Source: a virus. From it: a DNA stretch of 24,896 nt. Shown piece by piece: positions 1 to 21,428 of the stretch. Numbering within the stretch: position 1 is the stretch's first letter; every line of letters starts with the position of its first letter. Location of the stretch: IMG/VR virus record IMGVR_UViG_3300037041_000102, positions 1-24,896 of that record, one strand, 5' to 3'. The position numbers and the translations under genes were made by a program. The notes under the pieces are model-generated. The model saw nothing but the letters and a program-made list of their open reading frames with translations. It searched no databases and had not been told where the DNA came from.

Positions 1-62
1 TCTTCACCATCTGAGTACTCAGGATCTATAGTAATTTTATAGATTGGAATATCTTTAGTCAT
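1..62 (-). CDS. Partial gene: possible head maturation protease (XkdF-like), N-terminus only
   Basis: An ATG at 62-60 on the minus strand opens a frame that runs off the left edge after about 20 codons and starts MTKDIPIYKITIDPEYSDG. The short start 'PIYKxxID' followed by acidic residues resembles the N-termini of XkdF-like putative serine protease proteins in Bacteroidota phages, which are thought to process the prohead. That link is from memory of the family and rests on very few residues. Support for a real gene is good: the start codon is preceded by the same upstream motif seen before the genes starting at 1775 and 11261. It is divergent from the plus-strand gene at 107. Confidence 0.5.
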   Translation of the reverse strand, partial: MTKDIPIYKITIDPEYSDGE

Positions 63-93
63 AACTATATTATATTTTTTTTATATTTGTTCA
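63..93 (-). promoter_or_regulatory. Recurring upstream motif, copy 1
   Basis: On the minus strand the motif reads TGAACAAA (93-86), 11 bases, then TATAATATAGTT (74-63) directly followed by the ATG of the left-edge gene. Near-identical copies precede the starts at 1775 and 11261. This copy lies between divergent genes, so the TGAACAAA half is not there because of coding. It may be a phage promoter, which would give an almost leaderless transcript if TATAAT acts as a -10 box, or an extended translation start signal. Confidence 0.55.
82..89 (+). promoter_or_regulatory. Candidate Bacteroidota-type -7 box for the plus-strand gene pair
   Basis: TATATTTG fits the TAnnTTTG consensus of the primary sigma factor of Bacteroidota and lies 17 bases before the ATG at 107. 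No clear TTTG is found 19-21 bases upstream, so this is a half match only. It overlaps the minus-strand motif at 63-93, which would make the spacer a compact divergent control region. Confidence 0.35.
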
Positions 94-106
94 AAAATTA
101 GAAATT

Positions 107-685
107 ATGATAAACATTTTCGGTAAAGAAATCCCATCTAAGATGGATGAATTAACATTGGAGCAGTTCCAAAAGATATCTGCTATCCATAACAGTGATG
201 AGTATGATACTCTTGAAAAACATTGTAAAGTCTTTGAGTATCTAGGAGTCACTGAGGAGGAGATGGATGTAGACTTTGATTTGTTCTTAGAGAATGTAAA
301 GTTGTTTAATAAGGATAACTATACTAAAAAAGATACAGTTGAAGAGATAGAGTTAGAGGGCTATACTTATAAGGCTGAGATGAAGCTATCAGTAAAAGAT
401 TCTCGGATTGTTGAAAAGATTGTTAAAAAAGATAATAAAGAATATATCTCAGATATCATGGCTCTAATGTTCAAGCGAACTGATTTGACCAACAATGAGC
501 ATTATGATCCTGCACATCTAAAACATAAAGCTAAATTATTTAGTAAACTAAAAGCAGATATATCTATCCCTTACCTTACCTTTGTAACATACAAAATCAC
601 TAACCATGCAGAATCTCAAGTTACCAAAGAATTGGAATCAGATATCAGTGGAGCAGTTCCTGGAGATCAGGAGTCTGAGCAGTGA
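107..685 (+). CDS. Tail assembly chaperone-like protein, copy A
   Basis: This is a 192-residue acidic, soluble protein with no signal peptide or membrane segment. Its architecture parallels the next gene: an N-terminal 'IPSKMDELTLEQFQKIS' block (residues 9-25), an acidic middle, then 'DIMALMFKRTD' near residue 120 and a Lys-rich end. The next gene has 'LPKNWNQISVEQFLEI' and 'HILALLYRRTS' in the same places. I recall such proteins in Bacteroidota phages near the tape measure gene, where tail assembly chaperones normally sit, so that role is an inference. The start is 17 bases after a TATATTTG box. The last 80 bases overlap the next gene in a different frame. The pair lies opposite in strand to every other gene here. 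Confidence 0.6.
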   Translation: MINIFGKEIPSKMDELTLEQFQKISAIHNSDEYDTLEKHCKVFEYLGVTEEEMDVDFDLFLENVKLFNKDNYTKKDTVEEIELEGYTYKAEMKLSVKDSRIVEKIVKKDNKEYISDIMALMFKRTDLTNNEHYDPAHLKHKAKLFSKLKADISIPYLTFVTYKITNHAESQVTKELESDISGAVPGDQESEQ

Positions 686-1337
686 AGATGGAATGTTCAA
701 CTATCAAATTGATGTACTTTCTGCTTTAACAGATAGCGATATATCAGAATTTGAGGAGTTAGATATAGATGAGCTAAGTGAATTGACTAGTCAGATAAAA
801 TGGATACAGTCTGATCCATCTAGGAGGTATAAGAATAAGCTAGATAAGTATGTACTCAAGCCATTCAGTAAGCTCACTCTAGGAGAGTTTATAGACTTAG
901 AGTATTACTTCTCTAATAACTACCTAGATAATTTCTGCCATATCTTAGCATTACTCTACAGGAGAACATCTAAAAACGTTTATGGTGATGATATTATAGA
1001 GCCTTATGATTATAGTCCTAGAGATAGACTAGATTGGTATTTAAGCTATCCCATTACTGATGTTTATGGATTGATACCTGAGTATTTAAAGTATAGAGAG
1101 AATTTTACTAATACCTATACTAATCTATTGGTAGATGTAGTACCTGATGATGAGGTTTTAGAGGATGCTGAAGAGATTAAAGAACAAAAGAGAGAACAGG
1201 AGAAGCAGAAATTTGCATGGGAATCTACTATTATGGCTCTATGTAATGATGATCTAAGTAAGTTCAATGACATCCTTAATATGTCAGTGGTGTTAGTCTT
1301 TAATATCTTAGGAATGAAAAAGACCTTAGACAGTTAA
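606..1337 (+). CDS. Tail assembly chaperone-like protein, copy B
   Basis: This is a 243-residue protein related to the preceding gene: 'LPKNWNQISVEQFLEI' at residues 6-21, an acidic segment, 'PFSKLTLGEFIDLEYYF' around 87-103, 'HILALLYRRTS' around 117, and a C-terminus with 'KFAWESTIMAL' and 'NILGMKKTL'. The C-terminal block matches my memory of tape-measure-associated chaperone-like proteins in Bacteroidota phages. Its ATG lies inside gene A, 80 bases before A stops and in the +1 (equivalently -2) frame. That could mean coupled re-initiation or, less likely, a programmed frameshift as in lambda G/GT or Mu; I see no obvious slippery sequence. Its 3' end overlaps the convergent gene at 1326 by 12 bases, with no terminator between them. 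Confidence 0.6.
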   Translation: MQNLKLPKNWNQISVEQFLEIRSLSSEDGMFNYQIDVLSALTDSDISEFEELDIDELSELTSQIKWIQSDPSRRYKNKLDKYVLKPFSKLTLGEFIDLEYYFSNNYLDNFCHILALLYRRTSKNVYGDDIIEPYDYSPRDRLDWYLSYPITDVYGLIPEYLKYRENFTNTYTNLLVDVVPDDEVLEDAEEIKEQKREQEKQKFAWESTIMALCNDDLSKFNDILNMSVVLVFNILGMKKTLDS

Positions 1338-1775
1338 TGGATAGTTAGGAGTAAATCCTGCAGGAGGATCTAGTGCATAGAATGTATAAGTCAATTTCTG
1401 ATCACTTTCTAATATATCAGCTACCTCTAAGATAGGATAGTTCTGAGAAATCCATTCAATATATTGAGCATAGATTTCATTAGTAATACCTGCAGCTGCT
1501 AACTCTCTTGTAAAAGTAGCTACATAATCTCTAGGAGTAATTACTCCACCATTCCATAAGAAAGCTCCGTTATTTAAAAAGATAAAATAATACATGGCTA
1601 CTATCTCAATCTCTAAGCTACCGAATCCTGTGACCTTAGCATTAATCCTAATAGACTCTACTAGTGTACCATTGTTCTCTACAATATCATTCCTTAAGAT
1701 TCTCTTTAAGATGTTAGCCATTCTCCTACGAGTAGGATACTTTACATTAAACTCACCTGTATTCTTATAAGCCAT
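1326..1775 (-). CDS. Putative tail completion / head-tail joining protein
   Basis: This is a 149-residue protein with a basic N-terminus ('KYPTRRRMANILKRILRND'), then 'VESIRINAKVTG' and a hydrophobic 'MYYFIFLNNGA' block near residues 62-72. A basic helix, an 'R.NA.V' strand and an aromatic block ending in NGA weakly recall HK97 gp10-type joining proteins, but I cannot prove homology. It is the last gene of the minus-strand tail block before the convergent plus-strand pair. It does not overlap the upstream gene; instead a 19-base gap carries copy 2 of the recurring upstream motif, so it may have its own transcript or start signal. Confidence 0.5.
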   Translation of the reverse strand: MAYKNTGEFNVKYPTRRRMANILKRILRNDIVENNGTLVESIRINAKVTGFGSLEIEIVAMYYFIFLNNGAFLWNGGVITPRDYVATFTRELAAAGITNEIYAQYIEWISQNYPILEVADILESDQKLTYTFYALDPPAGFTPNYPLTV

Positions 1776-1807
1776 AACTATATTATATCAGATTCTAATT
1801 TTGTTCA
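1776..1807 (-). promoter_or_regulatory. Recurring upstream motif, copy 2
   Basis: TGAACAAA (1807-1800), 12 bases, then TATAATATAGTT (1787-1776) directly before the ATG at 1775. The first half also encodes the last residues (EQN-stop) of the upstream gene. The second half is noncoding and identical in 12 of 12 positions to copy 1. Confidence 0.55.
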
Positions 1808-2235
1808 GGAACTTGGCAGTTGGTCCATGAGTTTATTACTACTGATAAATTCATTTGCCATCCTGCAGCATAATCTAATAGATCATTATTCAATGGGATG
1901 AATGTAGGCTGTCCATCAATATCAAAGTCATAGTCATCTGAGAATGTAAACTCTAAGTAAAGATCCTGGAGTATCTGCTGAGTATCACTTAGAATAGTAG
2001 TGATGTTAGCTCTATCCATTTGTATAATATCAAAGCAATAAATCTCTAATGTAAAGGTAGTAGTATTCTCATAAGGAGTTACTCCTGTAGGAACTATATA
2101 GACTAGTGGATACTTCTCATCTATAGTTGCAAAGTTACCCATTTGCTCTTTAAAGTCTGAGCCTACTTTTTTAACCTGTAGATGATTGTTATAGAAAGTA
2201 GTAATCTTATCTACTATGGATTGATAGCTTATCAT
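1795..2235 (-). CDS. Putative tail terminator / minor tail protein
   Basis: This is a 146-residue acidic protein without membrane segments. It has 'YPLVYIVPTGVTPYENTTTF' near residues 42-61 and a beta-rich second half. Size, position beside the tape measure gene and the 'P..y..p......t..f.l.i..fd' pattern resemble tail terminator or tail completion proteins of Bacteroidota phages; this is inference from context rather than a motif-based call. It starts with an ATGA overlap with the stop of the tape measure gene (2232-2235), which implies translational coupling. Confidence 0.5.
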   Translation of the reverse strand: MISYQSIVDKITTFYNNHLQVKKVGSDFKEQMGNFATIDEKYPLVYIVPTGVTPYENTTTFTLEIYCFDIIQMDRANITTILSDTQQILQDLYLEFTFSDDYDFDIDGQPTFIPLNNDLLDYAAGWQMNLSVVINSWTNCQVPEQN

Positions 2236-4241
2236 AATACTGAATTTTGTTGAATGTTATTTATAAAGTGCTGAGTAGCTGTCATCTCAGTTTCTGATAC
2301 TACAGCTGTTACTGTTATGTTTTGATTAGAGTTACCTCCTGCATTTATTTGACTTCCTGTATTAGCTTGACCAAATAGACTAGGACCTGATGCAGGTGCT
2401 ACTGCTGTTGTAGCTGTTTCTCCTCCACCTCCTCCACCTGCACCTGTGTCAGATGGTGCAGATACACTACCTCCACCTAATGCAGATAATCCTTTAGCTG
2501 TAGCTCCTATTACTGCACCTATGCTAGTAGCCATTTTAACATATAATAGTGCAGATGTACCTAATCCTAGCACTCCTTTTGTAGCTACTTCTTTAGATCC
2601 TCCTACATTTGTATTATTTATAATCTCAGCTATAGATAAAGCTGCATTAGCTAATAGAGCAGCCTTTTGTATTTTCTTATTTTTTTCTGCTAGTCCTGCA
2701 AATAATGTTACTAGACCTTTAGCTGCATCTATCTCTGCAGCTCTTATATTTTTTTTAGCTTCAAATGCTACTTTAGCTGCATTACTATCTATAGCATTTA
2801 TCTTATCTTGAAATTCTTTCCTTAATAATAAGAATAGCTCATCATCTTCTTTTAGCTTAGCAGTCTTCTCATCAAATTCCTGCTGCAATTTTAATTTATC
2901 AGCCTCATCCTGACCATCTCTTAATCTTACAAGCTCTAAATATTTAGCATCTTCAAAAGCTATAGCATCTATTATAGCCTTAGCATCAGCTTCTTTTTTC
3001 TTAGCTATTTTATCATCCTCAATAGCCTTAGTTGCATCTGCATATTTTTTAACAATAGCTGCCTCCTGAATCTTTTGAGCATCTAATAATGCAGTAGTAT
3101 CATTGTTATATTTAACAGCTTCAGCTATCTTAATAGTATAGGCTGCCTTTAAATCATCTAGCTCTATTTGTTGAGCAGACTTTTTACTATCAGCTACTAC
3201 CTTAGCAGCTGCAGCAATATCAACCTCTGATGCTTTATCTGCGGCTATTCTTTTTTCTCTTGCTACCTTAGCTTTATCACTAGCCTCTTTCTCTTTTTTA
3301 TCAGCCTCATCAGATTCTTTTTTATCAGCAGAATTTTTAGCTACAATTTTCTCACTATAGCCTTGCTTTATTATTTCATTTTCTTTAGCTACTTGCTTTT
3401 TTAAATCTTCAATTTTCTTAAGATCAGCATCATCCCCTAATTTCTTTTGAGCATCTAGTGCCTCCTTAGCAGATTGTTTTCTTTTATTAGCCTCTTTTAT
3501 TTTAGTGTTACTTAACTCCTCCTCTAGCTTAGTAGTATCTTCACCTGCTGCCTTAGCCTCAGCAATCTCTCTACCTAAGTCTCCTGTAACTCTAGCAGTT
3601 CTTTCCTCAGATGATTTAGTTACTTTCTCATTAGCTGCTGCAGTTCTCTCTGCATTCTCTTCAGCTGCATAGGCTGTCAGTCCTAGCCAATCGGTCATAG
3701 ATTTAAAGCCTGCTATCAGTGCATTAATGGGTGCCATTAGTGCTTTGATAACATCATCTAATAATCCAAATGATTTAAGTACTAGAGCTATAGCAGCTAC
3801 AATAGCAGCAATAATAATAGGAATGTAGAATATAGGATTAATTAATATCTGAGCTCCTAGTTTTAGGAATGCTTTACCTAAAGTCCCTGCAGTCTCAGTC
3901 ATTCCTTTTAATGACTTACTAATATCCTCTTTATTCAATGCACCCAAAGCTGTAGCAAAAGTCTTAGACTTCTCTGCTGCCTCTTCAAAGTCCAATGACA
4001 TTAACGAGTCTTTAATCCCTCCAAGTCCATTGCTTACCTGCTCAAACTTAGAGCCTGATGCAAAGACAGCTACTGCCTCATTAGCATCCTTAATCCTATC
4101 ACTGAGTACACCTGCCTGTTGAGCAAGTGCAGTCATTTGTGCAGGATCAGTAGCACTGGCTATAGATCCTTTTAATTCTCTTAACTCAGCTTTCATCTGA
4201 GCTATGCCTTGTATCTTAAGGGGGATTACTACTTCATTCAT
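2232..4241 (-). CDS. Tail tape measure protein
   Basis: This 669-residue protein sets tail length and is threaded through the tail tube. Visible layout: an N-terminal helical region; a long hydrophobic segment at about 132-160 ('NPIFYIPIIIAAIVAAIALV' and on); a very Lys/Glu/Ala-rich coiled-coil region from about 190 to 510; a second hydrophobic part near 555-590; then a Gly-rich, low-complexity stretch and a polar C-terminus. This is the classic composition of tape measures. At roughly 0.15 nm per residue the tail would be on the order of 100 nm. Its start overlaps the stop of the upstream gene by 8 bases. Positions 1731-3241, covering its C-terminal half, contain no CpG dinucleotide at all. 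Confidence 0.88.
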   Translation of the reverse strand: MNEVVIPLKIQGIAQMKAELRELKGSIASATDPAQMTALAQQAGVLSDRIKDANEAVAVFASGSKFEQVSNGLGGIKDSLMSLDFEEAAEKSKTFATALGALNKEDISKSLKGMTETAGTLGKAFLKLGAQILINPIFYIPIIIAAIVAAIALVLKSFGLLDDVIKALMAPINALIAGFKSMTDWLGLTAYAAEENAERTAAANEKVTKSSEERTARVTGDLGREIAEAKAAGEDTTKLEEELSNTKIKEANKRKQSAKEALDAQKKLGDDADLKKIEDLKKQVAKENEIIKQGYSEKIVAKNSADKKESDEADKKEKEASDKAKVAREKRIAADKASEVDIAAAAKVVADSKKSAQQIELDDLKAAYTIKIAEAVKYNNDTTALLDAQKIQEAAIVKKYADATKAIEDDKIAKKKEADAKAIIDAIAFEDAKYLELVRLRDGQDEADKLKLQQEFDEKTAKLKEDDELFLLLRKEFQDKINAIDSNAAKVAFEAKKNIRAAEIDAAKGLVTLFAGLAEKNKKIQKAALLANAALSIAEIINNTNVGGSKEVATKGVLGLGTSALLYVKMATSIGAVIGATAKGLSALGGGSVSAPSDTGAGGGGGGETATTAVAPASGPSLFGQANTGSQINAGGNSNQNITVTAVVSETEMTATQHFINNIQQNSVL

Positions 4242-7149
4242 ATACTCTGATTTCTAGTGTGTTTTTAATTAAATGCTCGCCTATATAAACTGCAGTAGGG
4301 CTATGTAAATTGGTAACTTCTATCTTAATAGTATTGACAGTATTTCTATATACTAATGCTATACTATTAGTAGCTACTTGACTAAGTGTACTATAAGTTT
4401 TATCTAAAGTAAAAGCTCCTGCTAGTGTACCCTCATATCTTCCTACAGCAGTTCTAGTCCATACTATAGGTCCTATACTATTCTCAAGCTCTATGACTGT
4501 AGGTGCTGAGACACCAACTTGACTTATCAAAGCTACATATTTAGTGTAGGTAGGTAGCATCTCACTAACAGCTCTACCATTTATGTTATCTGTTACTGTT
4601 AGATTAGTAGTTACTACTCCATCTTGATCTACATTGTGACCATTGCCTACTACTAAGGTCTTAAGTCCATCACCTACTGTGTTACCTGATCCTATTATTA
4701 TAGCATTCTTATTGTCAGTAGTTACATTAGTCTCATCATTATAACCATCTAAGATGCTTACAGTCTGATCACCTTTACCTGGTCCTACAGGTAGAATAGT
4801 GCCACTAAAAAAAGCAGGCAAATCTATTTCAGTCTCTAGGCTGATTAGCTCTACCTTAGTAGGTTGTAAATAGTTAGCATTGTAATCTATTACTTTATTA
4901 ATACTCCACCATGAATTGTCTATCCTTATCTTATCATTCAGCTCCATTAGTTGAATGTCTACCTCATTAAGTAGAAAATATGCAGTCAATAGCTTACCAC
5001 CATTTATCTGAGCTACTGTTCTCCTCCAATATGAATTGTAAAGATTGTTATTAGTGTTCTGAGCTACCTGATAATAGTAGTATTGACATGGTGCAAAGTT
5101 TATATCAAATTCAGGATTAAATGGGCTAGCTCCTCCAAAGTGAGAGAGGTATGGATAAGCTCCATTTGTATCTGTTGTATCACCATATCCATGATTAATT
5201 ACTACATTCTGAGCAACCACCTCACCATTATCATATAAGATTCTGATATTACTCTTAGGAGATGCTCCATTAAGTAATGGTAGGAATGCACCAAATACTG
5301 TAGGCTGTACAGGAGTAGGTGAGAAGATAAGCTCTTTGACATCTATGCCTTTTACATATTCATTTTCAAAAGTTACCTCTGCCTGACCATACACCTCTTT
5401 AGTTACATCTGTATAAACTGTATTCGGTGAATCAGTATCTGCCTTGTATGTTAGTCTTAGCTTTTTATTATTAAGCTCAGGGATAAAGATAATAGACTGC
5501 TCCTTATCTTTCATTAGCTTGTTGGTCCAATCTACTGCTTTACCTGAATCATAATACTCATCTCTGTGTATTAGGATTAAATTAGTTTCACTTTGAGGAT
5601 CAGATGTAGCATAAAGATTGTACATCATAAAGATGCTCTTAATGAAATCTGATTGCTTAATCTTCTCAGGGATAAAGCTGTTCATAGTAGTGATACCACT
5701 GTTCAATGGGATATTGTCAGATGGTCGGATTGTTAGGTTGATGGATGTAATGTCTAGGATAACTTCAGGAGCTGCAAAGGGGATAGTACTAAACTCATCC
5801 ACCCACATTCTATACTGACCGGCACCTAATAATATCCTAGCTTGTGCTATTTGTACATCATTATAATCTATTGATCCTGTACCATCTGATGTAGCACTAA
5901 AAGTAAATACCTCAGTAAAACTACCTAAGCTAGTAACACCTGCAGGTAGAGCAGTATTATAATAATCTGCATAAATTTCTCTACCAATACAGCTAACATT
6001 TTGATGACCATCAATAGATACATTTAAAGCTAATTTAAAACTATTGCTGTGAGGAAATTGAGGTAATATAATTGGTCCTAGTGAAAAACATGATTTACTT
6101 GCATCAAGTGATAATGTATAGCTTACAGTCATCTCCCATGTATAAGACTGCCCTGCATTTACACCTGTCCATTGAGGAGTACTATACTCACCATTTGATG
6201 GATCAAATAAGTTGCTAGGATCTAATGTCTCAGTCCATCCTGTAGTAATAGGGTATCTTACAGGAGTTGTCATCTGTGATACAGTTGCATTATTTGAAGG
6301 AGTGGTCCATGTTTGACTCCATCCACTATTCTCTGCCTCCACCTTAGCATCACTCCAATCAATTATATTCTGATCACCATTGTAAGGAATCAGTAGCTTA
6401 TCAAATCTAGCCTCTTGTAAATCTGCCCAATCATAAGAATATCCTGCATCAGTAAAGATTCTATCAAAGTATACCTTAGCATAGATAGCAGGCTTAAACC
6501 AATTTAATTGATACTGATCATTTATATTGAATGGCATCACATACTTATAGCTATCTGCTACTGTATTGTCAAAAGTTGATATAACTATAGGAGCTGTTAC
6601 CTCATGATCTAAGTCTGAGAAGTCTATATCAGTCAAATACTTATTAGAGATGTCAGTAAAGAATGTACCTCTGTTCTCTTTCACTAGTACCTCATACTCT
6701 ACTATCTGCTCATAGGCAGATGTAAGCTGTGACTTTTTGATGCTAATAAGCTGAAGAGTTGCATTGATCATCACAGGGATTCCATCCTGGATCACATCAC
6801 AGCTAGTGAGCTGATTAATATCAAAAGTGCCTGCTTGTATGTTTACATCATAGTAATGATTAAGTAGGTTATTATTATTGCTATTGCCTACTAAAGTAAT
6901 GGTCTTAGAGAATGATCCTGTTCTCTTAGATATATCTCTAATATCTCCTATGCTAAAGTTCAAAGGGAATGCTGTAGAATCTTTGACATCTAAATAGCCT
7001 CCTGTAACTCCATTAATCCCTAAAGATTTTAAAATACTAGTACAGCAATCAAATGCCTCAAATACACCGCCATCATTAACTACTCTATTTTGGAAAGCAT
7101 TGACTAGAACAACAGCATCATCAGTAAATTTAAGTTGTATCCTAACCAT
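4234..7149 (-). CDS. Large distal tail / baseplate-like protein
   Basis: This is a 971-residue structural protein, the largest in the window. Near residues 69-103 it has 'IRDISKRTGSFSKTITLVG' followed by an Asn run and 'YYDVNI', a pattern I associate with tail proteins of Bacteroidota phages located next to the tape measure. The middle is beta-rich, with many Tyr, Asn and Ser. Around residues 812-853 a short repeat-like segment ('IIIGSGNTVGDG', then 'LVVGNGHNVD') resembles the stacked turns of trimeric adhesin head domains. By position after the tape measure it would sit at the tail tip; distal tail protein or receptor-contact hub are both possible. It overlaps its neighbours by 8 bases at each end. 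Confidence 0.65.
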   Translation of the reverse strand: MVRIQLKFTDDAVVLVNAFQNRVVNDGGVFEAFDCCTSILKSLGINGVTGGYLDVKDSTAFPLNFSIGDIRDISKRTGSFSKTITLVGNSNNNNLLNHYYDVNIQAGTFDINQLTSCDVIQDGIPVMINATLQLISIKKSQLTSAYEQIVEYEVLVKENRGTFFTDISNKYLTDIDFSDLDHEVTAPIVISTFDNTVADSYKYVMPFNINDQYQLNWFKPAIYAKVYFDRIFTDAGYSYDWADLQEARFDKLLIPYNGDQNIIDWSDAKVEAENSGWSQTWTTPSNNATVSQMTTPVRYPITTGWTETLDPSNLFDPSNGEYSTPQWTGVNAGQSYTWEMTVSYTLSLDASKSCFSLGPIILPQFPHSNSFKLALNVSIDGHQNVSCIGREIYADYYNTALPAGVTSLGSFTEVFTFSATSDGTGSIDYNDVQIAQARILLGAGQYRMWVDEFSTIPFAAPEVILDITSINLTIRPSDNIPLNSGITTMNSFIPEKIKQSDFIKSIFMMYNLYATSDPQSETNLILIHRDEYYDSGKAVDWTNKLMKDKEQSIIFIPELNNKKLRLTYKADTDSPNTVYTDVTKEVYGQAEVTFENEYVKGIDVKELIFSPTPVQPTVFGAFLPLLNGASPKSNIRILYDNGEVVAQNVVINHGYGDTTDTNGAYPYLSHFGGASPFNPEFDINFAPCQYYYYQVAQNTNNNLYNSYWRRTVAQINGGKLLTAYFLLNEVDIQLMELNDKIRIDNSWWSINKVIDYNANYLQPTKVELISLETEIDLPAFFSGTILPVGPGKGDQTVSILDGYNDETNVTTDNKNAIIIGSGNTVGDGLKTLVVGNGHNVDQDGVVTTNLTVTDNINGRAVSEMLPTYTKYVALISQVGVSAPTVIELENSIGPIVWTRTAVGRYEGTLAGAFTLDKTYSTLSQVATNSIALVYRNTVNTIKIEVTNLHSPTAVYIGEHLIKNTLEIRVYE

Positions 7150-8530
7150 TGATTGGAGAATTGAGGGCTAGCTTAATACTTACTGATTGCTTTATTAGAT
7201 TCTTATTACGCTGTCTAAAATTCTCAAATCCTGTAGCATCTACTGTACAAGCACAATCTATGCCTGTAGCAGAATAGAATACTTGAGGAGATGTCAGTAG
7301 CTCTTGGAATCTAGTTGCATTGTATTGGTCCATCCAATTAGTATTAAGATCAAAGCTCATCATTACATTAGGATTATAACTTCTATTGCCCATTGCATAC
7401 TCTCCCTGCTGCCATTTAGTAGATACCACTGTACCATCTACATGCTGATTATACATCTCTCTAGTTATCTGACCTTTCTCATAGGTCTTTAGTTGGAATG
7501 CAAAGGATTGCCATGATCCCATCCTATCTAGGTAGTATAGCACATCATCATTGATTGCACATCTATTGTCATAGGCAAAGTAATAAGGACCGAATACAGG
7601 CTCAGCTCCAAAGTTACATATTATCTCTACATAGAAATCCTCAGTAATAGAATGATCTGTAGTGTTTATTTCAAAGTTATAAAGACCATTTTTACAGACA
7701 TGATTTGTAGTGCCTAAAGCATTGCCATCAATATCATAATAGATTAGATCATAACTCCCTATATATACTCTAGCTAATAAGTAGAAGATTTGATCAGGTG
7801 TCATTAAAGCTCTAGCTGTAGAATCATTGGGAGTAAGAGTAGTAAGAGCAATTTGTGGGCTAGTTACCCCTAGATAACTATTTACAGGAAAGACTCCTCC
7901 GGTGTTAAATATAAGATTGTTATAAGCTCCATTAAATACCTCTCTATCTTGAATGATAACATCATTAGGTGTTATGGTCTTTCTGAAATCTGCATAGGTT
8001 ACCTCACCATCTATAGCTGCATTAGTTACATCAGCCCATAAAGCATTTATGGTAAAATTATTAGCAGTAGCAGATAGTACTGTATGCAATCCCTCTACTC
8101 CTGGATTAGCTACTCCTCCATCAGATTGCACAATTAGGATTTGATCATTAGCTACAAAGCCATGAGCTGTGTATGTGATTCTTACATTGCCACTATTATT
8201 TTGTAGTGAGCTAAAATAGTTTATATTTGAGATATACTCAAAGCCTAAACTTATATCATATTGATACCATGATATATTAGATGGTCCTAGCTCAAAATTC
8301 CATGTCACTAATGCCTGCATCAGCTTACTTATATCCATCTCCCCATATCCTGTACTATATACAGGGAGAGTTTTATAGGTAGCTATAGCAGTAGCTACAT
8401 TAGCAGGATTTATAGTAAAGATATATCTGAAGCCTGGCTCATTCTTATTAGTATTATTAATGATATACTTAATAGGATTGTAAGCAGGCATTAACTGAGC
8501 AGGCTGTGCTATGATAGTAGTACTAGGCAT
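7142..8530 (-). CDS. Tail structural protein with inserted E1-FCCH-like domain
   Basis: This is a 462-residue protein with no signal peptide, beta-rich and aromatic. A block at about 114-180 ('VRITYTAHGFVANDQILIV', a Gly/Asn loop, then 'VLSATANNFTI') looks like a module inserted into the host fold. Similar 'aHGf..gD.i.i......v..v....fti' modules (related to the FCCH domain of E1 enzymes) recur in phage tail proteins. The flanking sequence 'YISNINYFSS' to 'YADFRKTITPND' would read on without it. The gene lies between the large distal tail protein and the fibre genes, which suggests a tail-tip or fibre-attachment role. It starts 9 bases after the 103-residue gene stops. Confidence 0.6.
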   Translation of the reverse strand: MPSTTIIAQPAQLMPAYNPIKYIINNTNKNEPGFRYIFTINPANVATAIATYKTLPVYSTGYGEMDISKLMQALVTWNFELGPSNISWYQYDISLGFEYISNINYFSSLQNNSGNVRITYTAHGFVANDQILIVQSDGGVANPGVEGLHTVLSATANNFTINALWADVTNAAIDGEVTYADFRKTITPNDVIIQDREVFNGAYNNLIFNTGGVFPVNSYLGVTSPQIALTTLTPNDSTARALMTPDQIFYLLARVYIGSYDLIYYDIDGNALGTTNHVCKNGLYNFEINTTDHSITEDFYVEIICNFGAEPVFGPYYFAYDNRCAINDDVLYYLDRMGSWQSFAFQLKTYEKGQITREMYNQHVDGTVVSTKWQQGEYAMGNRSYNPNVMMSFDLNTNWMDQYNATRFQELLTSPQVFYSATGIDCACTVDATGFENFRQRNKNLIKQSVSIKLALNSPING

Positions 8531-8539
8531 ATTACTTAT

Positions 8540-8851
8540 TTATTTATTATATCCTGCAAATTCATGCTTAGGATTATTAACTTCAATTTCTGCTTTACCA
8601 AAACTAATAGACTGCTCACTCATTACATCAAAATGATGTCCATCTAAATAAGTTGCCTCAGTTATAACTTGCATATCTTCTATTACAGGAGGTGTTAAAA
8701 CTATCTGACCTATCTCAACTACTGCGTGTATGCCTGTGCCGTATGTTAGAGATGTAACCTCATTGAAAGTAGTCTCTACATATACACCCTTTTTTAGTAG
8801 GTCTTTCATTGCAGTTTCTTTGTTCTTGTATTTTAGTTTATATATGTTCAT
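8540..8851 (-). CDS. Small conserved phage protein near tail fibres
   Basis: This is a 103-residue soluble protein starting MNIYKLKYKNKETAMKDLL, with 'GIHAVVEIGQIVL' in the middle and 'YLDGHHFDVM' near residues 68-77. I do not recognise a domain. Similar small proteins occur next to tail-fibre genes in Bacteroidota phages as I recall them, and a fibre chaperone or connector role is conceivable but not shown. It sits 1 base after the fibre-like gene and 9 bases before the next tail gene, so it is part of the same transcript. Confidence 0.6.
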   Translation of the reverse strand: MNIYKLKYKNKETAMKDLLKKGVYVETTFNEVTSLTYGTGIHAVVEIGQIVLTPPVIEDMQVITEATYLDGHHFDVMSEQSISFGKAEIEVNNPKHEFAGYNK

Positions 8852-8852
8852 C

Positions 8853-10019
8853 TTATAAAGTTGTTAGTGAGATACATTCTGCGTTTGTTAGTTTAGTTGG
8901 GAATAGCGTAATTATATTATGCTTAATTGAACCATCATAAGGAGCAGATAAAATTGGAGGTAAAATAATATCATCAAAACTACCACTAAATGTTCCACTT
9001 GTTATTGAAGATAATAAAGTTCCATCTCTATATAATTGAAAATCATTTTGACCATAAACAAATGCTAATTTATATCTTTGACCATAAGTAGCACTTCCAG
9101 GTGAATAGTCAAAAAGTAAAGTAGTTCCATTTCCATAAAATTGAACTCCATTTTCTCTAAACCAAAAAAACTTACCATTGTTTCCAATAACTTGCATAAG
9201 TACAACATCACTTGCATTGTTGTTCCAAATGTAATCTAAAAACACAGTCCCCTCTGTCTGCCCTATCAAAGAACTTATCCCTGTCTTACTAATTTGGTCA
9301 GCATTTCGTGTTACTGCTGCTGAAGTTGTGGGGATGTAGGAGGTTGGGTATGAGCCTACTTCTGTTTGAGCTCCCCAAAGGTAAATAGTTTTCCCTGTTG
9401 TACCCGTAACTCCAAAAGCAATATAAGGAACTAAAGTACCCGTGAAAGTTGCTGTACAACGATGCCAACCGCTACCAAAACTTTTTATTGTACCCGTAAC
9501 ACTTCCACTTGTTGTAAAAGTTCCTGCACTTAAATTAACATCAACATTACCTACTCCCGCTATTTCAATTATAGACACACTTGATGTTCCCGCTTTCATA
9601 AATATTGAAACGGTATATGTTCCCGTAAGAGGAGAAAGAAGGAAAATACTCCCGCCCGTTCCCGTAGTTACAGTTACAGTATCTGCTGTTGTGTTTCCAT
9701 CAGGAGAAACTACTGAATTTGCTGTTAAAGAAGTTTGATATTTACCCCAATAAGCATTTTCAAACTGCTCTGAATATAAAAGTATATTAGTCCTCTGCGG
9801 CTCTACCAACAAACTTGGACAAGTACCGTTTGAGTAGTCTAAGCGAGGGACTTTGTTAGCCACCGACTCAATAAGCCCTGCACTATTTACCCTTGTAGCT
9901 GTTGTTAAACGATCAACAGACATATCTCCTGCACCTGATGTAGGCTTGATACTATACAAAACACTTACCTGATAACCATTAGGTGTTACTACTAAACTCG
10001 CATCATCAAATAAAGCCAT
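8853..10019 (-). CDS. Tail fibre-like protein with lectin-type (LamG/ConA-like) C-terminal domain
   Basis: This is a 388-residue secreted-looking structural protein without a signal peptide. Residues 70-91 carry 'LLVEPQRTNILLYSEQFENA', a widespread signature at the start of carbohydrate-binding-like modules of phage fibres. A jelly-roll-like domain follows to about 240 ('GWHRCTATFTG', 'YLWGAQTEVGSYPTSYIPT'). A LamG/concanavalin-like domain fills 247-388 ('GTVFLDYIWNNN', 'YKLAFVYGQNDFQLYRDGT'). The likely role is binding host surface glycans. Base use is mosaic: 18 CpG between 9301 and 9990 but none from about 8910 to 9305, so the N-terminal two thirds look recently acquired. It could be a capsid decoration rather than a fibre. 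Confidence 0.72.
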   Translation of the reverse strand: MALFDDASLVVTPNGYQVSVLYSIKPTSGAGDMSVDRLTTATRVNSAGLIESVANKVPRLDYSNGTCPSLLVEPQRTNILLYSEQFENAYWGKYQTSLTANSVVSPDGNTTADTVTVTTGTGGSIFLLSPLTGTYTVSIFMKAGTSSVSIIEIAGVGNVDVNLSAGTFTTSGSVTGTIKSFGSGWHRCTATFTGTLVPYIAFGVTGTTGKTIYLWGAQTEVGSYPTSYIPTTSAAVTRNADQISKTGISSLIGQTEGTVFLDYIWNNNASDVVLMQVIGNNGKFFWFRENGVQFYGNGTTLLFDYSPGSATYGQRYKLAFVYGQNDFQLYRDGTLLSSITSGTFSGSFDDIILPPILSAPYDGSIKHNIITLFPTKLTNAECISLTTL

Positions 10020-10022
10020 ATC

Positions 10023-11261
10023 TTATAGAGCTGTTATGTAAGTATTCCACGCTGCTACAAAAGCAGTATTCTCAGCTACCATACTAGCACCTGTAGCATA
10101 AGCTGCTACAGTGTGGTCTGCATAATCGTTAGTATCTCTTAATATGAATATCTTAGCTGTACTTAATGCAGTAGATAAAGCTGTTCTACTTGCTGAGGTA
10201 GTACCATTGAATAGGGTAACATCAGTAGCACTTGTTCTATGTATAGACTTTGGCTCTACTGTAGTAGTATATTCAAAGGTAGATGATAATGGTACTGTAC
10301 CACTTTGATTAATCTTATGGCTTGTGCTATCATTTAGTAGCATTTTATTTCTACTACCTCCACCACCTTGAATAGAGCCATCCATAGGTCCTTCACCAAT
10401 AAAATCATAAGGAAAAAAATACCTAGATGCGTTGTTTTGAGTATAGTTAGTTCCTGCATTTGCAACAAAACCTGTATCAATATATGCAGGGATAGAAGCA
10501 TCTCCTATAAATCCTTGAGTAGTATCAAAACCACAATCAATGTTAGTAACTGTAGTTAATCTTTTCCAATCTACTAAGGCTGATAAATCACCACTACCTC
10601 TAAACACACAAAGCACATCTAATTTAGCCCATACTCCTGCAGCTTTAATAGCTAACATAAATTGATTTTGTAGGATAGATTCAGCAGCAGCAGTATCTTG
10701 CTCAATGTAATATACTTGACCATAGTCATAGTCATAAATATATATAGCATCACTAGGCTCAGTAGCACTGCCTCCTGTATTGATAGCTGTTACTTCACAA
10801 CTTACATATGTATCTGCATCAGCAGCATCTAATGTATACTCATTAAGAGTTTCTCCACTTATAGGAGTTGCATCTCTATACCATTGGTAAGTAAATGATG
10901 TAGGGCTGTTATCCCAAGTACCATTATCTGTAGTTACAAGTTCTCCCTCATATCTTAAAGTAAAACTTAAAACAGGAGCTACAGTATTAACAGGTGGCGA
11001 AGCAGGTACAGCTGTGATAGCTTCCCATGCTTCCATCCAATTACCATTAATAGTTACTGTGCCTCCTAACTCTAAAACTATATCCTGGAGATAGTCAGTA
11101 GATGTAGCAGGATTTCCACCTACTTCAGTAAGTATATCAGCCATCAGGTCTTTAGATGTAGTTATATCTACTCCATAGTAATCAGCTATGCCACTAAGAT
11201 AGTTACCATTGATTGTAGTGACTCCTAGATTATCTGCTATTTGTTTTAATGTATCACTCAT
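10023..11261 (-). CDS. Tail fibre / decoration protein with Ig-like domain
   Basis: This is a 412-residue structural protein. Residues 1-85 contain short repeated units ('GNYLSGIADYYGVD', 'STDYLQDIVLELGGTVTING'). An Ig-like domain follows at about 90-175 ('NTVAPVLSFTLRYEGEL', 'FTYQWYRDATPISGETL', 'DADTYVSCEVTAINTGGSA'), a type common on phage surfaces for weak glycan binding. The C-terminal part has 'AIKAAGVWAKLDVLCVF' and 'NYTQNNASRYFF', which I have seen in tail fibre C-termini. It is the first gene after the terminase and is preceded by copy 3 of the recurring upstream motif, so it probably opens the structural transcription unit. Confidence 0.7.
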   Translation of the reverse strand: MSDTLKQIADNLGVTTINGNYLSGIADYYGVDITTSKDLMADILTEVGGNPATSTDYLQDIVLELGGTVTINGNWMEAWEAITAVPASPPVNTVAPVLSFTLRYEGELVTTDNGTWDNSPTSFTYQWYRDATPISGETLNEYTLDAADADTYVSCEVTAINTGGSATEPSDAIYIYDYDYGQVYYIEQDTAAAESILQNQFMLAIKAAGVWAKLDVLCVFRGSGDLSALVDWKRLTTVTNIDCGFDTTQGFIGDASIPAYIDTGFVANAGTNYTQNNASRYFFPYDFIGEGPMDGSIQGGGGSRNKMLLNDSTSHKINQSGTVPLSSTFEYTTTVEPKSIHRTSATDVTLFNGTTSASRTALSTALSTAKIFILRDTNDYADHTVAAYATGASMVAENTAFVAAWNTYITAL

Positions 11262-11293
11262 AACTATATTACATTAGGATTCATTTTTGTTTA
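11262..11293 (-). promoter_or_regulatory. Recurring upstream motif, copy 3
   Basis: TAAACAAA (11293-11286), 12 bases, then TGTAATATAGTT (11273-11262) directly before the ATG at 11261. The spacing equals that of copy 2. The first T-A-A is also the terminase stop codon. It differs from copies 1 and 2 by one base in each half. Confidence 0.55.
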
Positions 11294-12442
11294 GAACGAA
11301 TAGTAAGAATCATCAGTGTAATACTCCTGCCTTATGTAAGTGGTGGCATATCGGATTGCATCCATAGCATCATCATATAATTTAACAGGCTCATCCATAA
11401 TCTGATCACCTATTTTCTTCCACTTATAATTCTCATACTCTTTCATTATCTGCTTATCCTCCTGACAAAATACTCCAAAGGTCTTAATGTTATCTATGCC
11501 TTTCTTTACTACCTTGTTAGCATTATGCACATCATAGCCTGCAGTATTCATCTCGGCAATTATCTCAGGTCTTGAGTAATCTGCCATGATCTCTATTGTC
11601 TTATCTACATTCAGTATGTCCATCTTCTCTATCAGCTGAGTAGTGGTGAGGTAGCTCTCATAGATAATCTTCTCAATGAAGATGTCATTGTCACAGTAAT
11701 AGACTCTGACTAGAGCTGTAGGGTGATTATATCCAAAGTCTAAGCCATAAACATACTTAACGAATTTAGTTGGTCTGTGAGCTATGAATGTCCAATTAGA
11801 GTAGATGTTACTCTTAGAGATAGCTTTCTCCCCTAGAGCATAGATTTGATACATTGCCTCATCAGTTCTCTTTAAGTCCTCTATCTGCTTCTTAATGCTA
11901 TCAGGTAGGAATGGATTGTCTCTATAGGTAGACTTAATCAGGATGCTCTCCTCAGTAGGTAGATCATAGAGCCAGGAGGATGACTCAGATGGATTATAGT
12001 CAAAGATTAGCTTATCTTCAGTTCTCATATTAAGCTGAGTGAAATCATCATAGAATAACTCATTAGCCTCATTACACCAAGCCACATCTCTCTTCCTACC
12101 TCTTATCTTCTGCTCATCATCTACACTAAAAAACTCTACTATAGATCCATTAGGGAATGAGTAGATATGCTCTGACTTATTATGATTGGTCACCTCATAG
12201 ATATCCATGTCTTTCATGATCTCTAAAAAGTCCCTCATCACTGTAGCTCTCAGTGCAGGGAATGTCTTTCTGATGATTGACACTACCTTATTCTTATTTT
12301 GATAGCAGTAGACTATTAGCATCTGACAAAGAGAATAGGTCTTACTACTCCTAGATCCTCCCTCATTGATAATGAATCTTAGTGCAGGATCAGTGAGAGC
12401 TGCATAGTTTTTCTCAAATATGACTGTACTATTTATCTCCAC
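11291..12442 (-). CDS. terL: Terminase large subunit (PBSX/Terminase_3-type)
   Basis: This 383-residue ATP-driven packaging motor and nuclease translocates DNA into the prohead and cuts it. Walker A is GGSRSSKT at residues 28-35. A Walker B-type strand ends in the catalytic Glu at 125 ('RDVAWCNEAN'), and a coupling motif 'FDYNPS' lies at 147-152. The nuclease domain shows Asp 235 in 'GLDFGY', Asp 288 in 'MADYS' and the acidic cluster 357-361 ('DDAMDAIRYA'). The length is short but normal for this subgroup. It overlaps the small subunit by 14 bases. Tail genes follow rather than portal and capsid genes, which is unusual. Confidence 0.94.
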   Translation of the reverse strand: MEINSTVIFEKNYAALTDPALRFIINEGGSRSSKTYSLCQMLIVYCYQNKNKVVSIIRKTFPALRATVMRDFLEIMKDMDIYEVTNHNKSEHIYSFPNGSIVEFFSVDDEQKIRGRKRDVAWCNEANELFYDDFTQLNMRTEDKLIFDYNPSESSSWLYDLPTEESILIKSTYRDNPFLPDSIKKQIEDLKRTDEAMYQIYALGEKAISKSNIYSNWTFIAHRPTKFVKYVYGLDFGYNHPTALVRVYYCDNDIFIEKIIYESYLTTTQLIEKMDILNVDKTIEIMADYSRPEIIAEMNTAGYDVHNANKVVKKGIDNIKTFGVFCQEDKQIMKEYENYKWKKIGDQIMDEPVKLYDDAMDAIRYATTYIRQEYYTDDSYYSF

Positions 12443-12854
12443 TCTTAATGATGTTCACTTTGATCTCAGAGATAGCTTGACCATTTGTAGTGATGTCTGA
12501 TTTCTCAGTTAAGTTGTTTAATCGTTGAGTAATGGATGGATTGTATTGACCAACCATACCTCCACTGATTTGATCGTTTCTAATTTCTCTCTTTATGTAC
12601 GAACAGATAGTCCTATACTCAGAATATCTATTATCAGTGTTATCAAAATAATGATGACAATCTGAGTAATTTTTATAGCAGAATATCTCAAATCCCTCAT
12701 TAGTCAAAGGCACTCTCAAAGGCTCTGCTACCATCTCTGCAGTCTTTTGTGATAATACCCATTTATGTCTAGGATTAGCTAGAGTATAAGCTCTATATTC
12801 CTCAAATATCTCCATTAGTTTCTCAGGAGTTTCTATTAATTTAGTTCTACCCAT
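12429..12854 (-). CDS. terS: Terminase small subunit (gp3-like DNA-packaging protein)
   Basis: This 141-residue protein sits immediately before the large terminase. The N-terminus 'LIETPEKLMEIFEEY' and the C-terminal 'MVGQYNPSITQRLNNLTEK' match the pattern of gp3-type small terminases of Bacteroidota phages and prophages. These recognise the phage DNA and load the motor. There is a central Cys/His/Tyr-rich part ('FCYKNYSDCHHYF'). It overlaps the large subunit by 14 bases and the tiny basic gene upstream by 8, so translation of the three is probably coupled. Confidence 0.85.
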   Translation of the reverse strand: MGRTKLIETPEKLMEIFEEYRAYTLANPRHKWVLSQKTAEMVAEPLRVPLTNEGFEIFCYKNYSDCHHYFDNTDNRYSEYRTICSYIKREIRNDQISGGMVGQYNPSITQRLNNLTEKSDITTNGQAISEIKVNIIKSGDK

Positions 12855-19132: not shown

Positions 19133-19153
19133 AGTATAAATAAAAAGTGAGAG

Positions 19154-19191
19154 TCCCTGCTTAACACAACCGCCAGGTGGAATTGCAGGGA
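19154..19191 (-). promoter_or_regulatory. Hairpin in the primase-helicase leader
   Basis: TCCCTGC (19154-19160) pairs perfectly with GCAGGGA (19185-19191) across a 24-base loop that is itself C/G-rich by local standards ('CCGCCAGGTGG'). The structure ends 21 bases before the primase start codon at 19132 and has no following T-run, so it is not a standard terminator. It could control translation or be part of the origin. Confidence 0.45.
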
Positions 19192-19236
19192 TTTATACTC
19201 TCTAATGTTTTTTATCATGGCGATTATGTTATGGGA

Positions 19237-19244
19237 CAAATGTA
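19237..19244 (-). promoter_or_regulatory. Weak candidate promoter -7 box for the primase operon
   Basis: On the minus strand this reads TACATTTG, matching TAnnTTTG. A matching TTG at 19-21 bases upstream is not evident. It would give a leader of about 100 bases containing the hairpin at 19154-19191. Confidence 0.3.
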
Positions 19245-19287
19245 ATAATAAAATTAATATATGATACTAAAGTGCAAAAATAAATTA

Positions 19288-19318
19288 TTTGTGCTGTTTT
19301 GTGCTATTATTTGTGCTG
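19288..19318 (+). repeat. Three iteron-like direct repeats TTTGTGCTG/A
   Basis: TTTGTGCTG (19288-19296), TTTGTGCTA (19298-19306) and TTTGTGCTG (19310-19318) start 10 and 12 bases apart, about one helical turn. A fourth copy in inverted orientation is at 19528-19536, although that one overlaps the T-run of a terminator. Clustered, phased repeats next to an A/T block and replication genes suggest protein binding at an origin. Confidence 0.6.
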
Positions 19319-19343
19319 TCTAAACTCCTATTGTTATTGGGCT

Positions 19344-19501
19344 GTAGAAGATTAGAACGAAAAAACACTTTTTTTTTGTAAAAACTGTTCACCCCCCAAA
19401 ATGAAAATAAATTTTTTTTTTATTAAAAATATATTGTAAATAAAAATATATAATATATAGAGTATAGGGGTTGAAATTGTACTTTCGTTCTAATTCTCTA
19501 C
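19344..19501. repeat. 19-base inverted repeat flanking an almost pure A/T block
   Basis: The left arm 19344-19362 reads GTAGAAGATTAGAACGAAA. The right arm 19483-19501 is its reverse complement except for two adjacent positions. The 120 bases between include 19404-19459, where 55 of 56 bases are A or T. This looks like an unwinding element bounded by binding sites. Confidence 0.6.
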
Positions 19502-19533
19502 AAGTCAATATCAGTAAGGGAATTATACAGCAC

Positions 19534-19554
19534 AAAAAAAGCTCCGAAGAGCTT
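19534..19554 (-). terminator. Rho-independent terminator with UUCG loop
   Basis: On the minus strand AAGCTC, TTCG, GAGCTT forms a 6-base stem with the very stable UUCG tetraloop, followed by a run of T to 19534. It begins within the stop codon of the DnaA-like gene and closes the small-gene operon that starts at 22363. Confidence 0.9.
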
Positions 19555-19960
19555 AAATTATTTCTGCTAATTCTTTAGCTGTCATATATTCTTTAAATTT
19601 ATGGACCTTATGATAATCCCAAGGCATCTGAATCTTTACATTGATGTAGTTAAAATTCTCTACTGCTGAGACTTTGTACTTATCCTCATAATTATCCTGA
19701 ATAGCAGTTTGTACTAATGGCTCTATCTCATGCAGATATACTTTATCCTGCTGCCTGGACCATCTCCTGTGCATTTTAATCCCATGTATAACAGTAGCAT
19801 GATGTCTATTCATCAGCCTACCGATTTCACTAAGTGAGAGCTTGCACTTGTTAAGCCTGTACATTACATAGTATCTCTTATAGACATACGATCTATTTCT
19901 AGAGTTGGTAGCTAGTTGATACTTTGTGATTTGTTCTTTTAAAAATTTTAGTTCTGTCAT
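19553..19960 (-). CDS. DnaA domain IV-like DNA-binding protein
   Basis: This is a 135-residue protein with the chosen start ATG at 19960, 1 base after the upstream stop; an upstream in-frame ATG at 20035 would overlap the previous gene by 74 bases. Residues 41-62 contain 'LSEIGRLMNRHHATVIHG', which matches the helix-turn-helix signature of DnaA domain IV (canonical 'G..f.R.HSTV.HA'). The AAA+ part of DnaA is absent, so this is a stand-alone binding domain with an N-terminal helical segment and an aromatic C-terminal extension. Such proteins occur in Bacteroidota phages. It may bind the adjacent repeats as a replication initiator or act as a regulator. It is the last gene of its operon. Confidence 0.72.
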   Translation of the reverse strand: MTELKFLKEQITKYQLATNSRNRSYVYKRYYVMYRLNKCKLSLSEIGRLMNRHHATVIHGIKMHRRWSRQQDKVYLHEIEPLVQTAIQDNYEDKYKVSAVENFNYINVKIQMPWDYHKVHKFKEYMTAKELAEII

Positions 19961-19961
19961 G

Positions 19962-20180
19962 TTATTCTCTATTATAGTTATCAATCCAATAATTGTATAA
20001 TTCTTCGTCTTTTTTGTGACCTTGTGAGTGTGCATAATAACCTACTTGAATAAAATATCTCATCTGCTCCTTCTCCATTCCTTTGGCTTGTTTGATTTTT
20101 AAATCAATATATGAAGTATAAGCATTTTCTTCAATGTAATTTAATTCTTTTTCTAACCATTCTACTGCTGTCTTTTTCAT
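19962..20180 (-). CDS. KTAVEWL-family small protein, copy 1
   Basis: This is a 72-residue protein with start ATG at 20180, 1 base after the previous stop; an earlier ATG at 20216 would overlap. It begins MKKTAVEWLEKEL and has 'QAKGMEKEQMRYF' in the middle, with a Tyr/Asn-rich end. The two genes upstream share 'MK.TAV..L' and 'EKEQ[MI]'. This small family is very common in Bacteroidota phages and has no known function that I can name. It is probably a soluble helical protein. Confidence 0.75.
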   Translation of the reverse strand: MKKTAVEWLEKELNYIEENAYTSYIDLKIKQAKGMEKEQMRYFIQVGYYAHSQGHKKDEELYNYWIDNYNRE

Positions 20181-20600: not shown

Positions 20601-20839
20601 AATAATTTGTTTTGTGTTACTGACTTAAATAGATCCGATTGAGATTCCATTACACCGGTAGCATTAATGAAATCAATTTCTACTTTAGCAGATTGAATAA
20701 GAGTACCTGCAAGCTGAGAGATAGCCTTAGCTTTATCTACTTCTACATTGACCTGGTCTGTTGTTAATGTTTCATCGCTCAATCTTTCGAGAGCCATAAA
20801 TAGGTGATCTCTTAAATCACTTAGTTTGTTGTGTGCCAT
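20597..20839 (-). CDS. Conserved small phage protein (AKAISQLAGTLIQSAKVE type)
   Basis: This 80-residue helical protein begins MAHNKLSDLRDHLFMALERL and carries 'DKAKAISQLAGTLIQSAKVE' at about 35-54, followed by 'IDFINATG'. I recognise this as a family common in Bacteroidota phages and prophages, where it usually sits beside an HNH-type protein, as here. Its role is unknown. It overlaps the HNH-type gene by 23 bases and the next gene by ATGA. Confidence 0.75.
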   Translation of the reverse strand: MAHNKLSDLRDHLFMALERLSDETLTTDQVNVEVDKAKAISQLAGTLIQSAKVEIDFINATGVMESQSDLFKSVTQNKLL

Positions 20840-21428
20840 TGTTATTTATTTTTTTTATTAGTTTACATTTTAATCTCATCACTTGTTGTAATTCTTTAGG
20901 CAATCTTTGTATGGTATTTCTAGCCATATTCTCTTTTTTAGTTAGTAACATAAGATTGTCAATATCATTATTTAGATAATTACCATCTTTATATACTACT
21001 ATTAATCCCTTAGGTATTGGTCCATGATACTGCTCCCAAGTATATCTATTGAGGAGCTGCCACTTTGAATCTGCTATCTTAATATACTGATAGATCTTAC
21101 CTGATTTATCTTTCCTTTGATTGATAGTGCCAAATGGCTTAGTATTATGAGGTCTAGAGCCTTTCTTAAACATAGTGTGAGCCACTTTCTGATACACATC
21201 TTTGGACATTTTTTGTCCTTTGTTGGGAGGTACTTGACCTTTCTGAAATTGAGTAGCTTTACCACCTAGATATCCTGGAGGGAATTGAGTAGACCTAAGA
21301 TATTCAGGATCTTTTTTAATACCCATAGTACTAGCTCTATCATATACTGATTTAACTGTTACACCTAGATCATCTGCTATCTTTTTAGTAGGCTCAAATG
21401 GATACCTTTCTCTGATGATGTCATTCAT
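20817..21428 (-). CDS. HTH plus degenerate HNH-fold protein
   Basis: This is a 203-residue protein. Residues 1-40 form a helix-turn-helix ('PTKKIADDLGVTVKSVYDRA'). A linker 'FQKGQVPPNKGQKMSK' is typical of this family. Residues 120-170 are an HNH_3-like module ('WQLLNRYTWEQYHGPIPKG', 'VYKDGNYLNNDIDNLMLL'). The usual first His ('HR..WE') is Asn127 and the usual second position is Tyr146, while the Asn-Asn and Asn158 positions remain, so the nuclease may be inactive and the protein a DNA-binding regulator. It lies in a regular operon, not inserted in a gene, so a homing role is less likely. ATGA overlap with the gene upstream. Confidence 0.75.
   Translation of the reverse strand: MNDIIRERYPFEPTKKIADDLGVTVKSVYDRASTMGIKKDPEYLRSTQFPPGYLGGKATQFQKGQVPPNKGQKMSKDVYQKVAHTMFKKGSRPHNTKPFGTINQRKDKSGKIYQYIKIADSKWQLLNRYTWEQYHGPIPKGLIVVYKDGNYLNNDIDNLMLLTKKENMARNTIQRLPKELQQVMRLKCKLIKKINNNGTQQTK

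Follow-up and report, generated by a model that had tools for sequence, protein, structure and literature searches.

Several phages direct late transcription through sigma factors of their own. In Salmonella phage 7-11, the late promoters (GTAAtg-(16)-aCTA) have been mapped experimentally and are read by the phage sigma factor SaPh711_gp47, with transcription starting 6-9 bp from the promoter element (PMC8948821). The locus described here resembles that system in a phage-encoded sigma-like protein and in putative bipartite late promoters with a 16-nt spacing, present in several copies before late operons. However, the box sequences and the presumed host phylum are different, the genome is near 30 kb, and the promoter abuts the ATG, which predicts leaderless messages. 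The gp36 middle and late promoters of phage phiEco32 read tAATGTAtA (PMC8948821). Here too, a sigma-like phage protein is paired with an AT-rich -10-like box before structural operons. The phiEco32 promoters consist of a single element, whereas the motif described here also conserves a -35-like half, and its proposed reader includes a region-4-like domain.

In phages of Firmicutes, late genes are controlled by the ArpU/RinA regulators and, likewise, by Xpf of PBSX; the genes of RinA/ArpU regulators lie beside the terminase genes. The present locus shares with these the regulator gene near the terminase, with a proposed role in late gene control, but shows no match to the families and belongs to a different host group. 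To our knowledge, none of the ArpU, RinA or Xpf promoters abuts a start codon. On the host side, sigma-A promoters of Bacteroidota carry TTTG or TAnnTTTG (PMC6847099, PMC9723704), a consensus present here before a divergent gene but not fitted by the late motif. Most leaders in Flavobacterium johnsoniae are longer than 10 nt (PMC6847099) and leaderless mRNAs make up 5.5% in F. psychrophilum (PMC9723704), so late leaderless messages would be unusual for such hosts. Late sigma factors of phages that use bipartite promoters have precedents; a group-wide late promoter abutting the start codon is new. Literature searches returned phage late sigma precedents and no report of this motif.

Three motif copies in the window

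The window, a 24,896-base phage fragment from IMG/VR, contains the features collected in Table 1. The late genes lie on one strand in the order TerS, TerL, structural and tail genes, XkdF-like prohead protease (PF14550), portal, holin, and peptidase lysin, and their run is broken up by a divergent pair. The PF14550 protease family was found for the corresponding gene in a relative (G008). The two divergent genes, neither of which has a family match, overlap by 80 nt within the late region and have separate starts and similar N-termini. The possibility of a frameshift linking them was dropped, since the second ORF, in the +1 frame, has a largely conserved start of its own and resembles the first at the N-terminus.

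Table 1. Features of the 24,896-base window that bear on the motif
Feature	Position	Strand	Remarks
MTKDIPIYK... gene, 5' end, cut by window end	1-62	-	Prohead protease family; XkdF-like in relatives
Putative late promoter, copy 1	63-93	-	TGAACAAA 86-93, N11 spacer 75-85, box TATAATATAGTT 63-74, ATG 62-60
TATATTTG, -7 box of Bacteroidota sigma-A type (TAnnTTTG)	82-89	+	For the divergent gene at 107
Two overlapping divergent genes	107-1337	+	107-685 and 606-1337; without late motif
149-aa late gene, MAYKNTGEF...	1326-1775	-	Probable head-tail or tail protein, without a match to any family
Putative late promoter, copy 2	1776-1807	-	TGAACAAA 1800-1807, N12 spacer 1788-1799, box TATAATATAGTT 1776-1787, ATG 1775
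412-aa late gene	10023-11261	-	Matches PHROGs including a virion structural protein family
Putative late promoter, copy 3	11262-11293	-	TAAACAAA 11286-11293, N12 spacer 11274-11285, box TGTAATATAGTT 11262-11273, ATG 11261
Terminase large subunit (TerL)	11291-12442	-	Landmark
Probable terminase small subunit (TerS)	12429-12854	-	gp3-like packaging protein, under curated cut-off
Sigma-like protein, 175 aa	13182-13709	-	Proposed reader of the motif; shortly upstream of terminase genes

The motif TRAACAAA-N11/12-TRTAATATAGTT occurs exactly three times in the window, each time directly against the ATG of a late gene, and all three copies that a preliminary description had placed before the starts at 62, 1775 and 11261 are found there, on the minus strand. 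The exact bipartite pattern has two matches, against none in 100 dinucleotide shuffles, and the degenerate pattern has three, on one strand only, with none for the pattern reversed. By itself, the half-box TATAATATAG is not significant in the window (10 matches against 12.6 expected). Since the half-box alone is not enriched and the pair is far above chance, the signal consists of the two boxes at their fixed distance. When both strands of the window are scanned with a two-block weight matrix, these three sites alone score at least 14, in line with the earlier remark that the other starts examined lack the motif. The coding contexts also turned out as described: copy 1 is noncoding, the first half of copy 2 falls within the final codons of the ORF 1795-2235 upstream of it, and the first half of copy 3 begins on the TAA stop of the terminase gene, overlapping it. 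With different genes and different coding contexts, common protein ancestry does not explain the motif. The earlier observation is confirmed, and it was understated.

The motif in relatives and its variation by clade

The terminase of the window shares 33% identity with terminases of Flavobacterium siphophages. IMG/VR contains many close relatives, which make up a large, uncultured, freshwater phage group whose hosts are presumed to be Bacteroidota from the TerL relatives and the conserved TAnnTTTG box. Twenty long relatives, of 28-37 kb, were read from end to end, and 21 genomes were scanned. The sigma-like ORF lies near the terminase genes in 21 of the 21, although, as homology served to gather all of these genomes, its co-occurrence with the motif does not count as independent evidence. 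Searches of the phage collection and of GTDB genomes gave no homologue of the sigma-like protein, and so neither a cultured host nor a prophage, and a TerL scan of genomes gave a single find, a pond MAG contig of 29.6 kb (L430, JAIXRY010000011.1).

For the relatives, 38 non-redundant sites were chosen solely for having AATATAG[GT]T no more than 2 nt from an ATG, and 37 of them were profiled. Nearly all of these 37 have an AACA core upstream, recovered independently of the selection, and the spacer measures 11 in 25 of them and mostly 10-13 in the rest. At a weight-matrix score of at least 20, the 21 genomes yield 74 matches, every one on the late-gene strand, with a matrix trained on sites taken partly from the same scanned genomes; dinucleotide shuffles yield 0.02 matches per genome. 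The offset to the start codon is 0 in 54 of the matches, 1 in five, 2 in ten, and 11 in three, which puts 69 of the 74 within 0-2 nt of a start. The search over the genome and its relatives that the preliminary description had proposed thus finds the motif almost only at late gene starts, and the many matches off gene starts that it had named as damaging to its reading are absent (two of the 74 strong matches are not at any start). A few sites stand at 4 or 11 nt from the ATG. Among the strong matches the box never overlaps the ATG, and this sharp lower bound at 0 is what would be expected if the start codon must be within the transcript.

Three units carry the element in the window, as had been counted, but in relatives the number rises to 4-5 late transcription units per genome: those of the gene following TerL, of a mid-tail gene, of the prohead protease, and of the portal operon. 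A shared motif stands before several late operons and is nearly absent elsewhere, the pattern expected of a late promoter class. In the four genomes that were folded, the portal-operon promoter lies directly downstream of an intrinsic terminator (4/4). Copy 2 keeps both boxes across 33 distinct close relatives, with a more variable spacer. The TerL-related cultured Flavobacterium phage filifjonk9-1 has no site scoring above 15.3. Some clades have an additional marked small gene, with the promoter inside the 3' end of the sigma-like ORF. In L356 (at about 11173) and at the equivalent places in L358, L362 and L354, this in-gene promoter precedes a gene for a hydrophobic protein of 54-58 aa.

The -10 box takes clade-specific forms, namely TATAATATAGTT, TAATATAGGT, TACAATATAGGT, TTAATATATA and GCAATATAAGT. 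Boxes of different promoters within a clade differ at 1.85 of 12 positions, while those of the same promoter in different clades differ at 3.24 of 12; when clade labels were shuffled within each promoter class, none of 20,000 trials did as well (permutation p=5e-5). Such drift, common to unlinked sites, is as expected from one reader acting in trans, and it points to a reader linked to the phage. Contig L430, found after the analysis and used as a held-out test, has 43% GC, a TerL 75% identical and a sigma-like protein 48% identical to those of the window, and four sites, three with ACAATATAAGT against an ATG and one with ACAATATAAAC before a GTG. This contig, the concerted variation, the shuffles and the recovery of AACA are independent of the matrix training and of the collection by homology.

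The sigma-like protein as candidate reader

The protein encoded shortly upstream of the terminase genes was modelled with AlphaFold2. The model consists of sigma2-like helices (2-73), a flexible or disordered linker (76-97), and sigma4-like helices (98-174), that is, the ECF architecture, in which a flexible linker connects region 2 to region 4 and region 3 is missing. Sigma factors, chiefly of the ECF type, account for almost all of the top PDB matches to the full model, and these matches cover both domains. Their Foldseek E-values are not significant (0.012 at best, and 1.2 for a sigma factor with region 2 alone), and the VIA Z of up to 8 is middling for helical folds. Region 2 by itself (pLDDT 90.5) has sigma2 or sigma2-like domains as all of its best seven VIA matches, at Z 5.5-7.6 over 68-75 residues and 2.7-3.6 A.

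Sequence comparison gives less. The protein falls far below the curated cut-off of the sigma family TIGR02985 (16 bits against 126), with E=0.008 in the library scan and E=1.7e-4 in a six-frame search of the window, where it is the sole match. Pfam gave no match, and profile searches of Pfam, PHROGs and PDB sequences nothing convincing. Alignments by hhalign with RpoE and FecI of Escherichia coli were not significant, the one with FecI being in register over region 2. Because of this weak sequence support, the protein is called sigma-like from its model and is not filed as a member of the sigma family.

Proposed mechanism and alternatives

The best explanation, and one that we consider probable, is that these are ECF-like late promoters of the phage, read by its sigma-like protein and giving rise to leaderless or near-leaderless late mRNAs. 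The motif would be the late promoter class of the phage group, with a -35-like half (AACA core) and a -10-like half (TATAATATAG). The reading of the preliminary description, a phage-specific promoter that the sigma-like ORF could recognize and that would give leaderless messages, came through all the computational tests applied to it, but its plain TATAAT is to be replaced by a core of AACA, about 16 nt, and TAATATAG, a spacing like that of ECF sigma factors. We infer that the phage protein is a sigma factor and that it reads the motif: host RNA polymerase carrying this two-domain protein would recognize the promoter at what is presumably a late stage of infection. With only 2 nt between the end of the -10 box and the start codon, the predicted transcription start is at the ATG or no more than about 2 nt away from it, and each late operon would yield a leaderless or near-leaderless mRNA. 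Applied to AACA-(16)-TAAT, the start distance of phage 7-11 gives -1 to +3 of the ATG; taking TAATAT instead of TATAAT as the -10 hexamer would place the start within the ATG. The divergent pair, and probably the early genes too, would use host sigma-A promoters of the TAnnTTTG type.

In 20 of 20 genomes, TAnnTTTG is kept before the divergent gene, 11-17 nt ahead of its ATG and with variable nn. Bases 86-89 of TATATTTG are common to the -35-like half (AACAAA) of copy 1, which suggests that divergent promoters for host sigma-A and for the phage sigma factor overlap there. The late sites themselves do not have the sigma-A consensus of Bacteroidota: they read TAATATAG, and the TAnnTTTG at copy 1 is on the opposite strand. 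This bears on the idea that the ORF encodes a RinA/ArpU-like activator, which would bind the upstream half and bring host sigma-A polymerase to the downstream half. Its C-terminal half is a helix-turn-helix domain in the model and it adjoins the terminase genes, as the genes of those regulators do; yet the downstream half does not fit the -7 box of sigma-A promoters (PMC6847099), the model shows a sigma2-like domain in the N-terminal half, and neither NCBIfam, Pfam nor PHROGs gives an ArpU or RinA match, all of which makes such an activator improbable. A host ECF sigma factor as the reader, with some other role for the phage protein, appears to us just as doubtful. Flavobacteria do possess several ECF sigma factors, seven of them in F. 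psychrophilum (PMC9723704), and AACA-16-TAAT resembles ECF promoter spacing. Nevertheless, the -10 box of the ECF motif known from flavobacteria is CGT (PMC9723704) and so differs from TAATATAG. Moreover, the phage box shows concerted drift from clade to clade, and each genome of the group has its own sigma-like ORF.

The fixed distance to the start codon could also indicate an mRNA element acting in translation instead of a promoter. Against this stand the conserved AACA about 27-31 nt before the ATG, at a constant spacing and partly inside the coding ends of other genes, and the terminators directly before one of the promoters. The start-codon context speaks the same way: the A at -3 that the host favours, and that goes with leadered translation, is seen in 14% of motif genes against 50% of other genes, and motif genes have G instead. 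Shine-Dalgarno-like sequence precedes none of 65 motif genes, compared with 9% of other genes, leaving the motif genes with no signal for leadered translation before their start codons. Altogether, a translational element is very improbable. Chance, or common ancestry of neighbouring sequence, could appeal to the short box that is not enriched by itself in the window, but the shuffle, strand and reversed-pattern controls, the different genes and contexts, and the held-out genome all speak against it; this possibility was already excluded by those controls and retains a negligible probability.

A stronger form of the phage-sigma reading holds that the sigma factor sets its starts on the AUG itself, that the whole late programme is leaderless, and that two forms of the polymerase compete at the head-operon junction. 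It is put forward tentatively, at somewhat less than an even chance. The motif makes late transcription units readable from sequence alone in abundant uncultured freshwater phages, and provides a ready -35/-10 consensus together with a candidate reader. The clade-by-clade drift of the box, alongside a sigma-like protein that drifts as well, forms a natural data set for sigma-promoter specificity. If the proposal is true, these phages would express late genes from leaderless mRNAs in a phylum without Shine-Dalgarno use where such mRNAs are rare, through a translation route seldom used by their leader-using hosts, and Flavobacterium ribosomes could be tested for leaderless initiation.

Outside the late region, the window holds an HNH endonuclease gene (PF13392) at 20817-21428. 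The ORF at 19553-20035 weakly matches DnaA in its C-terminal portion and adjoins a long AT-rich noncoding stretch (19133-19552), which together suggest a possible replication origin.
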